Shown here one piece after another: positions 6,244 through 64,000 of a stretch of DNA of 64,000 nt. The notes beneath the pieces are model-generated. The model was not told the DNA's origin and searched no databases. It was given only the letters and a program-made list of their open reading frames with translations. Each line of letters opens with the position of its first letter. Within the stretch, counting starts at the first letter, position 1. The position numbers and the translations under genes were made by a program. Location: the NCBI RefSeq assembly GCF_004342115.1, contig NZ_SMAC01000002.1, positions 62,001 to 126,000 on the forward strand, written 5' to 3'. Origin of the DNA: Mannheimia haemolytica. GTDB taxonomy: Bacteria; Pseudomonadota; Gammaproteobacteria; Enterobacterales; Pasteurellaceae.

Positions 6244-6667
6244 ACACCTCTTTTGCACGTTGTTTGAAAGCATTTACCATTTTTAAAGTTAATTCGTTGA
6301 ACACCTTGCCGAACACCATTGCTACAATTGGGCTGGAAAATTCAAAATTTAATTGCAGGGCAATTTTGCAACTTTGCTCATCAAAGGGGGTGAATGTCCA
6401 AGCTCCGTGTAAATGGCGGAAAGGCCCTTCAATTAATGCCATCTCGATTTTATAGGGCGGCGTCATTTTATTGTGGGTACTGAAGGTTTGGCTAATGCCT
6501 AATTTCTGAATATGTAACTCTGCCTTTAATTCATTTTCGCCGGTGCTAAGGGTTTTGGTACTCACGCAGCCGGATAAAAATTCGGGGTATTTTTCATACT
6601 GATTAACAAGTTGATACATTTGCTCGGCACTATAAGGCACGAGGGCAGATTGATTAACGATTGGCAT
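6233..6667 (-). CDS. ratA: RatA / coenzyme Q-binding COQ10-like START domain protein
   Basis: A 144-residue single-domain protein of the polyketide cyclase / COQ10 START family, with MPIVNQSALVPYSAEQMYQL at its N-terminus and the conserved segment PEFLSGC. E. coli RatA was reported to bind 50S subunits and block subunit joining; the COQ10 homologues bind quinone. The chosen ATG at 6667 has AAGAGAC upstream; an in-frame ATG 24 bases further upstream has no site. It overlaps rnfH, so the two are translationally coupled. Confidence 0.9.
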   Translation of the reverse strand: MPIVNQSALVPYSAEQMYQLVNQYEKYPEFLSGCVSTKTLSTGENELKAELHIQKLGISQTFSTHNKMTPPYKIEMALIEGPFRHLHGAWTFTPFDEQSCKIALQLNFEFSSPIVAMVFGKVFNELTLKMVNAFKQRAKEVYGV

Positions 6668-61018: not shown

Positions 61019-61653
61019 CTAATCACAAAATCCTTTTAAACAATCCCACAAAATCAAATAGCAATATTTAACAACTTCGTGGTTTTCAGGTGTTGGACTT
61101 AAGCTACCATGTACCAAATGGCAACGAACTTGATAAATTATTTCTAATAACCCGGAAAATATTTTTTGGATATCCTCTACTAAAACCAAATTGCCTAAAT
61201 CGTGAGCATTTGCATATTGTGTTTTTAATTTTCCTGCACGCGTTTTTGCGTTGTGAATAACTAGATTCTGATATGCTACAGAATTTGTCTTGTTAGGAAA
61301 ATCAATAAGCACATTTTCCAAGTTAAATTTAGAATATTCACTTGGAATATTGCTACCTGAATATTTTAACTCTGCCTGAACTAATGCAAAATGAAGTTGC
61401 TCAATATTATTCCATAAATTAGTTTTTTCTTTTATTTTTCCAGAGGTGAATATTCTTTCAAACTCTTTATAAAGTTTGTTTTGATTACTGGTATCCGATT
61501 TTATTCTATCAATATGTGTTCTATCCTTACCTAAGGAATAATGGAAGTTATACCAGCTATTACAACTGAGCCATAACATTAAAAAAGAGAGTGGTAATCT
61601 ATCCTTGCTTTATTAAACCACTCTTTTTTCAAATCTTGATTATGATTAGGCAT
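61019..61653 (-). pseudogene. HEPN-domain protein next to hsdS, frameshifted at a T6 tract
   Basis: An ATG at 61653, two bases after the hsdS frame's stop and preceded by AGGTAATA, opens MPNHNQDLKKEWFNKARIDY and stops at TAA 24 codons later. One extra T in the T6 run (61581-61586) would join it in frame to the long open frame 61019-61579 (LMLWLSCNSWYNFHYSLGK...), giving about 211 residues. Near the end RCHLVHG fits the Rx4-6H motif of HEPN RNases, followed by SLSPTPENHE. HEPN proteins often accompany restriction or toxin-antitoxin loci. Translation of the long part from the internal ATG at 61579 has no good ribosome-binding site. Either a real inactivation, a phase-variable tract or a sequencing error is possible. 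Confidence 0.7.
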
Positions 61654-61655
61654 TA

Positions 61656-62417
61656 TTACCTCATATTTTCTATTTCTTGTTCTACAAGTATTTTAGCTTT
61701 TTCCAGTAAAACTTCACTTTCTACTCTCAATGCAAAACTTTGTTGTACTTTGTCGCTAATGGTTTGCTGGATATTTTTAGGTAATACCGGAATCACTACA
61801 TCTAAAATTTCAGACGGTTTCCAATGTTGGATAATAGAGCCTCCCGCATCTCTTTCCGCTTGTAATTGTACAGCAGGAGAATTCAATGCTAACGCCAAAT
61901 AATCGGGTAAAACTTCGTCAGTTTTAAGCTCTAGATGCACAATTGCCCCTGATGTAATCACATTCAAATCTTGCGGAACACGGTAAGCAATGCCGACTGT
62001 GCCGTCTTTAGTCAGTAATATACTGTCTTTTTTAGGTCTTACAACATTGCCAAAATCTTTCGGATGTAAGTATTTATCTGTTTGGCTGATGCCGAATTTA
62101 GATAAATCCGATACACGCACAAAGGGTATTCCCTCTGTTTGATAAGCTTCCGAGCCCGGTTCTACCGATTTTTGTAAATTAACAATCTCACCTAATTTCA
62201 TCGTTTTGAAATTGGCTAATTGTGCAAATAAGCTTGCAAATTTAGGTTGGTAATATTCTGCATCTAAACGACCGCTTGTACCGAATGATTGACCGAATGA
62301 ACATACCGAAATATTTTCAGGCTGTTTGACAAGTAAATGTTCTAATAAAGTCCATTCTGCTAAACGTGCAAAATAAGAAGATCTCGCCAATAAACCATAA
62401 GGCTTAGCAGGATCTAC
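61656..62417 (-). CDS. hsdS: hsdS second frame: C-terminal target-recognition domain
   Basis: This frame is open from the last G of the poly-G tract to TAA at 61656 (253 codons) and has no ATG near its beginning; only TTG at 62390 could start it. It encodes VDPAKPYGLLARSSYFARLA, the coiled-coil end, then TSGRLDAEYYQPKFASLFAQ and a target-recognition domain with GIPFVRVSDLSKFG, SILLTKDGTVGIAYRV and AGGSIIQHWKPSEILDVVIP, ending in a second coiled coil (LRVESEVLLEKAKILVEQEI). It is therefore the 3' part of a longer specificity subunit and is expressed in full only when the G tract has 9 (or 12) residues. Confidence 0.85.
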   Translation of the reverse strand, partial: VDPAKPYGLLARSSYFARLAEWTLLEHLLVKQPENISVCSFGQSFGTSGRLDAEYYQPKFASLFAQLANFKTMKLGEIVNLQKSVEPGSEAYQTEGIPFVRVSDLSKFGISQTDKYLHPKDFGNVVRPKKDSILLTKDGTVGIAYRVPQDLNVITSGAIVHLELKTDEVLPDYLALALNSPAVQLQAERDAGGSIIQHWKPSEILDVVIPVLPKNIQQTISDKVQQSFALRVESEVLLEKAKILVEQEIENMR

Positions 62418-63840
62418 CCCCCCCCCGCACTTCTAACTCATTGATATTAAATGAATTATTTTCAATTTCAAACTCTACATTATTTTTAGCTTGAGCGAGT
62501 AAATTTTGTGCTTGCTGCCTTAAATCGTTGCTTTGGCGGATATATTCAGCAATTTTTTCTTGGATTTCTCCACTTATTTTAGGAATTGGTAAATTCAAAA
62601 TATCGTTATCTTTAATTACAGGATAACTCGTACCTACATTAAATTGTAGTAACCAATCTTTATATAGTTCTGACCGTAATAGCACCTTTAAAACTTCATT
62701 ATTAAAAACAGAGTTTTCCTTTCTGCGTAATACTGTAAACGCACCACTAACAACTAAATCTTGATCATTTTCACCGATAATTGTTACTGCACCACGATAA
62801 GGGCGAACGGTTGAAATTAAAATATCACCTGTTTGGGCTTGAGTTTTAGCATTAGCAGGTAATTCTTGTGTCTCTATCCAATTCGTTTGATATGAACCAT
62901 CACCAATATTAACATCACCAATTTCAATATATTGATACATCGGTTTTGTCCAATCAGGTTTTTGGGTGATATGTAAATATTCATCACGAATAAAAACATA
63001 ATCTTGCGATTGAATTAAATTCCAGTATTGCTCATATTTAGTTTGATAATACTCTGCATCTAATCGTCCTGTTTGTAAGAAACTCTCTTTTAAGGATTTA
63101 ACATTTACAGGATTGCTATCAGCTTGAAAAGCTCTCAAACCGAGATTTTCTAATAATAAAGTTTCAGCTTCTTGGTAACTTTGTGTTGATTTTTGTACAA
63201 AATCATTACTTTGCTTAATGATTTTATCTACCTGCTTTTGTGTTTCTAGATCAATTAAGGGGACTTTAATCGCACCAAGCTCCTCATTATTCAGATTGTA
63301 TTGTCCTGTTGGACGTGCATTCCGGTTAATTTGGATTTTTCCATAAGAACTTTGTAAAAAAGCAAATAAATACGTTGGTAATAATTCTTTATTATATTTT
63401 GATTTTAATCTTACAAAAGACATTGCTTGTGTAATATTTGCTTTTGGAAAAGTGCTACTAACATAAGCTACCCGACCAACAACCTCCAAAGTTGCACCAA
63501 CGATATTTACTAAAACATCCCCTTCTTTCAGTTGTGATGAAATCATTTTCTCATTGATATCTTCGCTAATAAAATAATCTACCGAAGAGTACTTATTTAA
63601 TAGATTATTCCTAATATCATTGGTTTTTAATAAGACAACCCCCTCTTTTAAGTTATCATCTCGATCTGTTGGTGTTGTACCACTTTTAATCAGAGAAACC
63701 TCATTCAGCGATAATGGAAAATTAAAACTCGGATGGTTTAAGTATTTTTTCAAAAAGAAAGTACTATCCATTCGTTCCGAATAACTTGCAGAACGAACCT
63801 TACTCAAATAAACCTCGCTCACCTCTAGCCCATCTAACAA
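62404..63840 (-). CDS. hsdS: Type I restriction-modification specificity subunit, first frame
   Basis: In the sequenced state this frame gives about 478 residues with two target-recognition domains. TRD1 is at about 25-200 (NEVSLIKSGTTPT, then GDVLVNIVGATLEVVGRVAY and ARPTGQYNLNNEELGAIKVP). A coiled coil follows at about 205-240 (ETQKQVDKIIKQSNDFVQKS). TRD2 is at about 275-425 (GRLDAEYYQTKYEQYW, GDILISTVRPYRG, GTSYPVIKDNDILNLPIP), then a second coiled coil to about 460 and a short tail cut by the poly-G tract. The start is unclear: TTG at 63840 has no good site, and the frame stays open upstream (GKGLSPFDPAKYQALLDG) to a TAA near 63898, overlapping the end of hsdM. Confidence 0.88.
   Translation of the reverse strand: MLDGLEVSEVYLSKVRSASYSERMDSTFFLKKYLNHPSFNFPLSLNEVSLIKSGTTPTDRDDNLKEGVVLLKTNDIRNNLLNKYSSVDYFISEDINEKMISSQLKEGDVLVNIVGATLEVVGRVAYVSSTFPKANITQAMSFVRLKSKYNKELLPTYLFAFLQSSYGKIQINRNARPTGQYNLNNEELGAIKVPLIDLETQKQVDKIIKQSNDFVQKSTQSYQEAETLLLENLGLRAFQADSNPVNVKSLKESFLQTGRLDAEYYQTKYEQYWNLIQSQDYVFIRDEYLHITQKPDWTKPMYQYIEIGDVNIGDGSYQTNWIETQELPANAKTQAQTGDILISTVRPYRGAVTIIGENDQDLVVSGAFTVLRRKENSVFNNEVLKVLLRSELYKDWLLQFNVGTSYPVIKDNDILNLPIPKISGEIQEKIAEYIRQSNDLRQQAQNLLAQAKNNVEFEIENNSFNINELEVRGGGRSC
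62417..62426 (-). repeat. hsdS: G10 tract joining or separating the two hsdS frames
   Basis: On the coding strand GTGC-G10-TAGATC. With ten G the first frame ends RGGGRSC then TAA. With nine G the reading passes into GTA GAT CCT GCT AAG and fuses both frames into one protein of about 727 residues. Homopolymeric G tracts of this length slip readily during replication. Confidence 0.92.
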
Positions 63841-63869
63841 TGCCTGATATTTAGCAGGGTCAAATGGGC

Positions 63870-64000
63870 TTAATCCTTTCCCACAAAAGAGAGCTTTTCT
63901 TTTTTAGCAAATTCAATAAAGGCTTCTGCAATGCCGTCTTGGGTACTATTATCGTGATTAAATAGATCGTGCTCCACAATTAGGTGTTGATGGTTGTCTA
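63870..64000 (-). CDS. hsdM: Type I restriction-modification DNA methyltransferase, C-terminal end
   Basis: The last 42 codons of a gene that begins beyond the window: DNHQHLIVEHDLFNHDNSTQ, then DGIAEAFIEFAKKEKLSFVGKD and stop. This resembles the C-termini of N6-adenine methylases of NgoAV-like type I loci as far as I recall them. The gene overlaps the open hsdS frame, which lies in the -1 frame. One extra G in GTGGGAAAGG (about 63880) would fuse the two. Confidence 0.7.
   Translation of the reverse strand, partial: DNHQHLIVEHDLFNHDNSTQDGIAEAFIEFAKKEKLSFVGKD

Follow-up and report, generated by a model that had tools for sequence, protein, structure and literature searches.

Two candidate layers of reading-frame control, a putative -1 frameshift signal and a repeat-gated third TRD, in an RM+S restriction-modification system of Mannheimia haemolytica and its relatives

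Introduction

The 64,000-nt stretch of Mannheimia haemolytica DNA analyzed here (hereafter the window) ends in a restriction-modification locus that we read, with a probability of roughly three in four, as an RM+S system with two layers of frame control, namely a fixed recoding signal between RM and S and a phase-variable repeat within S. In the first layer, ribosomes ending RM would sometimes slip by -1 at a G GGA AAG heptamer, aided by a hairpin 5 nt downstream, and read on into S. Both free RM and an RM-S fusion would be made, and an (RM)2S-like enzyme could assemble from them. In the second layer, a G10 tract between half-S units 2 and 3 would alter its length by slipped-strand mispairing, also within a strain. 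Out of frame, which is the present state, S would stop after TRD1-TRD2 and the enzyme would use that private bipartite site. In frame, a conserved third TRD (omega) would be added, and the same RM would also, or instead, use a site with an omega half-site. Cutting and marking specificity would thereby switch together, and the methylome would be expected to change with omega.

Results and Discussion

Locus layout

The operon lies on the minus strand and runs past the window end, and the flanking sequence was taken from the same contig (L007). Following metH come the RM gene of 667 codons, S units 1 and 2, the G10 tract, S unit 3, a small accessory gene and iron-transport genes. The RM gene (L007:5870-7873) extends beyond the window, where its 3' end occupies 63870-64000 with the stop TAA at 63870-63872. 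The S frame (62404-63876) is in -1 relative to RM and starts with a conserved LSPFDPAKYQALLDGLEVSE leader. It continues through half-S unit 1 (TRD1 plus helix, 63103-63774) and unit 2 (TRD2 plus helix, 62428-63066), both placed by a half-S HMM with converted coordinates, and ends with the stop at 62404-62406 at the tract. Exactly ten G (62417-62426) lie between the 478-codon frame 62404-63840 and a second minus-strand frame (61656-62414), which is out of frame here and encodes a helical leader and half-S unit 3 (61659-62270) of the conserved omega TRD type. Pfam places two Methylase_S stretches in the first S frame and one in the second, so that both frames and Pfam confirm an earlier sequence-only reading, in which G10 separated a two-TRD frame from a third TRD. 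Its further claim that G9 or G12 would join the frames stands as reading-frame arithmetic, and an in-frame relative (L051) has an open frame of 734 codons.

When the window was shuffled by dinucleotides, matches to nine G averaged 0.11, and two overlapping matches, as observed, were reached in 2 of 100 shuffles. A chance origin of G10 is untenable because related arrays have a repeat at the same junction. The 2.58-Mb source genome has five tracts of at least nine G, two of them between TRD units of S genes. The second such S gene lies outside the window (G000:C2:40647; L009 ~6618-6640), where a G9 splits two half-S frames of approximately 200 codons. It is accompanied by an hsdM-like gene, a PrrC-like gene (PADLOC PrrC) and an hsdR-like ORF, and this locus at C2:40.6 kb is a much closer NgoAV look-alike than the window locus. 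Of the other tracts, a G11 lies early in a porin-like ORF whose frame is intact in this assembly (L019:3632; G000:C3:59631). Two G9 tracts, with their genes named by eye, lie within an NADH-dehydrogenase-like ORF (L018; G000:C2:20625) and 5' of a substrate-binding-protein-like ORF (L020; G000:C18:15007).

The accessory gene downstream of S (61019-61653, minus strand) encodes an RCHLVHG motif, and its product may be HEPN-like. Near a T6 run (61581-61586), the window copy departs in frame from its relatives, which adjoin S or sit between it and RM in 15 of the 138 sequences searched (a few of them duplicates). The AF2 model of the protein, with a mean pLDDT of 39, was too poor for use.

System type

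In the RM protein, nuclease and N6-adenine methyltransferase are fused in one chain, HSDR_N_2 followed by N6_Mtase. The residues D100, E117, K119, Q129 and Y133 (D..ExK..QxxxY) are identical in all 122 aligned loci and presumably represent the PD-(D/E)xK and QxxxY motifs of HsdR nucleases. The closest PDB match of RM is RM.BsaXI (Type IIB; 8w0p), a match that spans the methyltransferase part only. S has the TRD-CR-TRD-CR layout with two Methylase_S stretches, and its PDB matches are HsdS and S.BsaXI. By this domain architecture, the window locus is probably a two-gene RM+S system of the Type IIB (BcgI/BsaXI-like) kind. Among the ORFs in 18 kb around the locus (L007) no hsdR was found, and an R subunit may be encoded elsewhere. 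As no hsdR was seen in the 18 kb read, membership in the classical, NgoAV-like Type I hsdMSR systems was rejected. The hsdS of classical Type I proposed by the sequence-only reading is thus replaced by an S whose partner is a nuclease-methyltransferase fusion. MADS (MAD2/MAD5) was rejected as well, with NCBIfam equivalog scores (328/720 bits and 135/400 bits) under the cut-off. Searches with unit 3 gave no match in the PDB and none among plasmids. A search of 5426 E. coli genomes with the RM gene matched three, covering 13% of the query at 64.7% identity, so that they gave no strain series.

Relation to known systems

In HpyUM032XIII, a BcgI-like RM+S system of H. pylori, the tract length in S adds a TRD and changes the methylated motif from CYAN7TRG to CYAN7TTC (PMC4450513). 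It shares the RM fusion and the G tract in S with the window locus; unlike HpyUM032XIII, which goes from one TRD to two, the window locus would go from two to three, and two relatives reach four. In NgoAV of N. gonorrhoeae, a one-base change in the hsdS poly-G joins two frames and changes specificity (PMC9577141). The poly-G in the S gene and the joining of two frames by tract length are common to both, and to this extent the NgoAV likeness that had been proposed holds. NgoAV, however, is a classical Type I system with hsdR, separate hsdM and hsdS and a tract between TRD1 and TRD2. The window locus differs on each point, with no hsdR nearby, an RM fusion and a tract between units 2 and 3.

JHP1422 (JHP1422/JHP1423) of H. 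pylori is a published S with three TRDs and two specificities, and by analogy it suggests that more than one TRD pairing can occur in the three-TRD form. JHP1422/JHP1423 differs in being Type I and in having a third TRD that duplicates the second, and recombination-like allele variants are named there instead of a repeat gate (PMC3936762). RM.BsaXI/S.BsaXI (PDB 8w0p) resembles the window locus in its RM fusion, two-TRD S, (RM)2S assembly and modular TRDs. Its S has two TRDs, and neither a repeat nor a frameshift is mentioned in the accessible text (PMC11997821, PMC9159934). Of the further reports, one describes an HpyH1III tract that varies among human reisolates in agreement with methylation, and another discusses frameshift-mediated specificity switching for JHP1272. 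Systematic surveys give repeats in 7.9% of Type I hsdS genes, so single members of the window S family may already be in such lists. Tract-switched TRDs are therefore already known (NgoAV, HpyUM032XIII), and the new elements are the gating of a third or fourth TRD and the signal for frameshifting, for neither of which a description was found in the accessible open-licence literature.

These systems also bear on the state of the short form. An on/off switch, in which the three-TRD form alone works and the short form is inactive, appears unlikely to us. Some phase-variable R-M genes do go on and off, as published reports describe, and DNA binding by the short form is a prediction; however, this form has the two-TRD architecture of 82 two-unit relatives with intact units, and the short form is described as active in HpyUM032XIII and NgoAV. 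We also consider it improbable that the off state would yield unit 3 as an independent half-S pairing in trans. The gated frame does hold start-like codons, e.g., TTG 62390, and half-S can act as dimers (HpyUM032XIII S1, BsaXI TRD1-CR1, JHP1422 TRD3), yet a comparison of six junctions by eye revealed no conserved start where unit 3 begins, and the isolated downstream half of HpyUM032XIII is reported to have given no activity.

Entry into S

The fixed layer of the preferred two-layer reading is suggested by the junction of RM and S. S is in the -1 frame to RM in 80 of 91 loci by script and in four more by eye. An in-phase heptamer (G GGA AAG, G GGA AAA, T TTT TTT or T TTT TTC) is found 0-1 codon 5' of the RM stop in 82 of 90 distinct loci, L151 having been dropped as a duplicate of L026, against an expectation of 0.048 per locus from RM bodies. 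Eight loci lack a heptamer at the RM stop: in four of them RM and S share a frame, in two S lies in +1, L071 has its heptamer further upstream, and L150 is a distant relative. In the window, the X XXY YYZ heptamer 5' of the 0-frame stop is G GGA AAG (63876-63882, minus strand), in phase for -1 and one codon 5' of the RM stop. Phage lambda G-GT uses the same heptamer. A stable structure follows at 5-nt spacing, a hairpin (63827-63870, minus strand) with arms at 63853-63870 and 63827-63844, whose window copy has internal mismatches (z -3.26).

Across loci, the 70 nt 3' of the heptamer folded with a median z of -5.12 against dinucleotide shuffles, and 81 of 82 sites had z < -2; the control segments from RM genes (n=328) reached a median z of -0.16 with 20 under -2. 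An 18-bp stem was aligned for 71 of the 82 heptamer loci (alignment A2), leaving out ten with another loop length or a divergent stem and L146 as a near copy of L145. In this stem, 90.6% of cells are paired vs 30-60% in slid controls, and 86 cells are changed on both sides vs 11-41. The covariation score is 0.285 vs at most 0.104 for slid alignments. Among the pair-count controls, slide -3 equalled the true alignment in pairs with both sides changed (8), and the number of further pair types was matched by 5 of 500 shuffles; no control reached the other measures. An upstream SD-like stimulator, an optional element of such signals, precedes 30 of 45 T-type and 12 of 37 G-type sites and is absent from the window. 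An Rfam search returned nothing but a sub-threshold match on the opposite strand.

The sequence-only reading had started S at TTG 63840. This start was rejected, since the TTG is no more than the first possible start in a frame that opens 5' of it and overlaps the end of the RM gene; the leader preceding the TTG is conserved in the -1 frame. Translation of S by re-initiation or from a TTG in the leader, with no programmed frameshift, seems very unlikely more generally. A TTG does occur approximately 10-12 codons 3' of the RM stop in many loci, and HpyUM-type systems have been expressed with an engineered start. Against this reading stand the leader conserved in the -1 frame 5' of the TTG and the constant distances between heptamer, 5-nt spacer and covarying hairpin, where two unrelated heptamers lead into one and the same frame; moreover, RM and S form one open frame in L034, L044, L053, L096, L184 and L205. 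Given these conserved elements, S probably lacks its own start codon, and we infer that programmed -1 frameshifting would yield RM plus an RM-S fusion from one message.

Such a pair of products has an engineered counterpart. The EcoKI M-S fusion is active and is reported to require extra free M in vitro; it differs in being an engineered Type I protein whose native genes are translationally coupled (PMC3510504). RM and RM-S from one message would fit this requirement, because partial frameshifting would supply the free M. In the BcgI-like pairs HP1471/HP1472 and JHP1364/JHP1365, which share the RM fusion and a homopolymeric G in S with the window locus, S follows the RM stop with no start codon, according to the authors. 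They blame inactivity on the missing start, and frameshifting is not proposed in that section of the paper (PMC3936762).

Of the 32 Campylobacterota loci read, five carry, as judged by eye, a signal of this type, two join RM and S in a single frame, and in the other 25 S is a separate downstream gene that lacks the signal. Because many of the signal-less loci have gated arrays, the two layers are not obligatorily linked.

Repeat switch across relatives

For the second layer, a half-S model was built from seven loci, the model and the unit boundaries being our own, and used to scan the best 80 of 497 RM relatives, among which several contigs end within S. A third half-S unit was found in eight of these 80, and all eight have a repeat of at least 9 nt between units 2 and 3: G10 in Rodentibacter rarus, (AG)11 in a Moraxella MAG, (AG)12 in Moraxella lacunata, G9 in Neisseria sp. 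83E34, G15 in Streptococcus cuniculipharyngis, (AGAAC)9 in Treponema vincentii, (AGAC)7 in a MAG titled Planctomycetota and (AGAC)13 in Parvimonas parva. The two-unit loci among the same best 80 of 497 had no comparable repeat at that place, with A8/T8-type runs only. Searches with unit 3 matched 7 of 140 genomes in the host family, 3 of 398 in a phylum sample, 2 of 335 at the Streptococcaceae level, 6 of 299 around M. lacunata, 4 of 83 around Neisseria, 1 of 130 around Parvimonas and 7 of 195 around Treponema; these counts include the source genome of each search, and many of the matches are two-unit S. The targeted searches added arrays with AG13, AG19, G7, G8, (AGCCAGC)3, (AGCCAGC)5, G9, G10 and C15, together with one decayed copy (L144) that was set aside. 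The RM protein found matches in 71 of 397 genomes sampled from Campylobacterota. Among the 32 loci read, 13 contain a third unit, 12 of these with a junction repeat, and two arrays (L222, L223) have four units and two repeats.

In total, 30 arrays from several phyla provide 32 repeat-bearing junctions, 31 with a repeat of at least 8 nt and one, L142, with G7 only. One array (L202/L226) has a third unit and no repeat. The three-TRD layout, which the sequence-only reading expected to be unusual, thus recurs in these 30 arrays and is no peculiarity of one strain. Comparison of the locus across relatives, in line with the check that this reading had suggested for related strains, places the repeat at the same junction with varying length and frame. 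Six repeat units occur at the gated junction (G, C, AG, AGAC, AGAAC and AGCCAGC). The genes of Treponema vincentii, Parvimonas and the other Treponema loci carry three different repeat units between flanks of 85-96% identity, from which it follows that the repeat sequence turns over while some repeat persists.

The gated junctions are in frame in 11 of 32 cases (binomial p = 1.0 against one third), matching the share that a free-running switch would produce. By contrast, units 1 and 2, whose junction has no gate, are joined intact in 28 of 29 arrays, the exception being a break in L055, and in all 82 two-unit loci, a count that leaves out the cut array L148. Close relatives differ in both repeat number and frame. 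Identity between the Treponema genes L145 and L146 is 96.3% across 2131 aligned nt, and the sole internal gap of 14 nt equals two repeat units and alters the frame. L217 (G11, off) and L220 (G12, on) are 95.1% identical over 977 nt, and L023 (AG12, on) and L140 (AG13, off) 91.9% over 1503 nt. The view that tract length sets a two- or three-TRD frame is upheld by these pairs and by the selection on unit 3 described below. A phasevarion, which the sequence-only reading also proposed, would be a possible further consequence.

Two further observations were made on these loci. Treponema vincentii and Parvimonas parva (L055/L091) share 95.8% identity across 758 nt of unit 1 DNA, a sign of recent transfer between phyla. 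Just 5' of RM, an octanucleotide repeat, CCTACAAG, occurs in 11 copies in Nicoletella (L041:5836) and in 6 copies in Avibacterium (L047:5876), both with a two-unit S, and is perhaps a different phase-variable gate.

The gated third unit

In the 17 non-Campylobacterota arrays, pairwise identity of unit 3 is 50-98% in all 136 pairs, compared with medians of 30% for unit 1 and 36% for unit 2. At a 45% threshold, with four reference units drawn from the arrays themselves, the omega type is the last unit in 27 of 29 arrays; among 84 two-unit loci it takes second place in 34, and it is never the first. With the window unit as the only reference, 27 of 29 last units reached at least 44%. It forms unit 4 in the two four-unit arrays measured and is not last in L214 and L218. 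The AF2 model of the in-frame three-unit Streptococcus S (L051; mean pLDDT 75, pTM 0.55), adequate for helices and not for the placement of unit 3, predicts that unit 2 is followed by one helix, which breaks off at the glycines encoded by the repeat, and that another helix precedes unit 3.

The dN/dS of unit 3 was 0.03-0.21 in all nine pairs, including pairs with both copies out of frame, and 0.10 for the window unit against R. rarus, where dS is near saturation. Judging by these ratios, unit 3 is under purifying selection. That unit 3 is the remnant of a neighbouring S gene and the repeat a neutral expansion at a dead junction, as might be read from the 21 of 32 junctions that are out of frame, is hardly credible and was rejected on dN/dS, with the diversity and turnover of repeat units at this one junction and an in-frame share exactly as for a free-running switch also speaking against it.

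Conclusions

Beyond the window locus, we are inclined to see a widespread RM+S class that would set its subunit ratio by -1 frameshifting, a subset of which would have an extendable S array in which repeats switch on added TRDs and the last TRD is of one conserved type, letting a cell shift between private and shared sites in cutting and marking at once. If this is true, the annotated S start codons in the RM+S family are wrong, and heterologous expression of S alone would miss the native RM-S fusion form. The H. pylori BcgI-like systems called inactive for a missing start codon would then merit a second look. The switch would provide natural pairs of two-TRD and three-TRD enzymes for testing half-site choice by a three-TRD S. 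It would also be a natural test of cell survival when the cutting specificity changes and cutting and marking share one chain.
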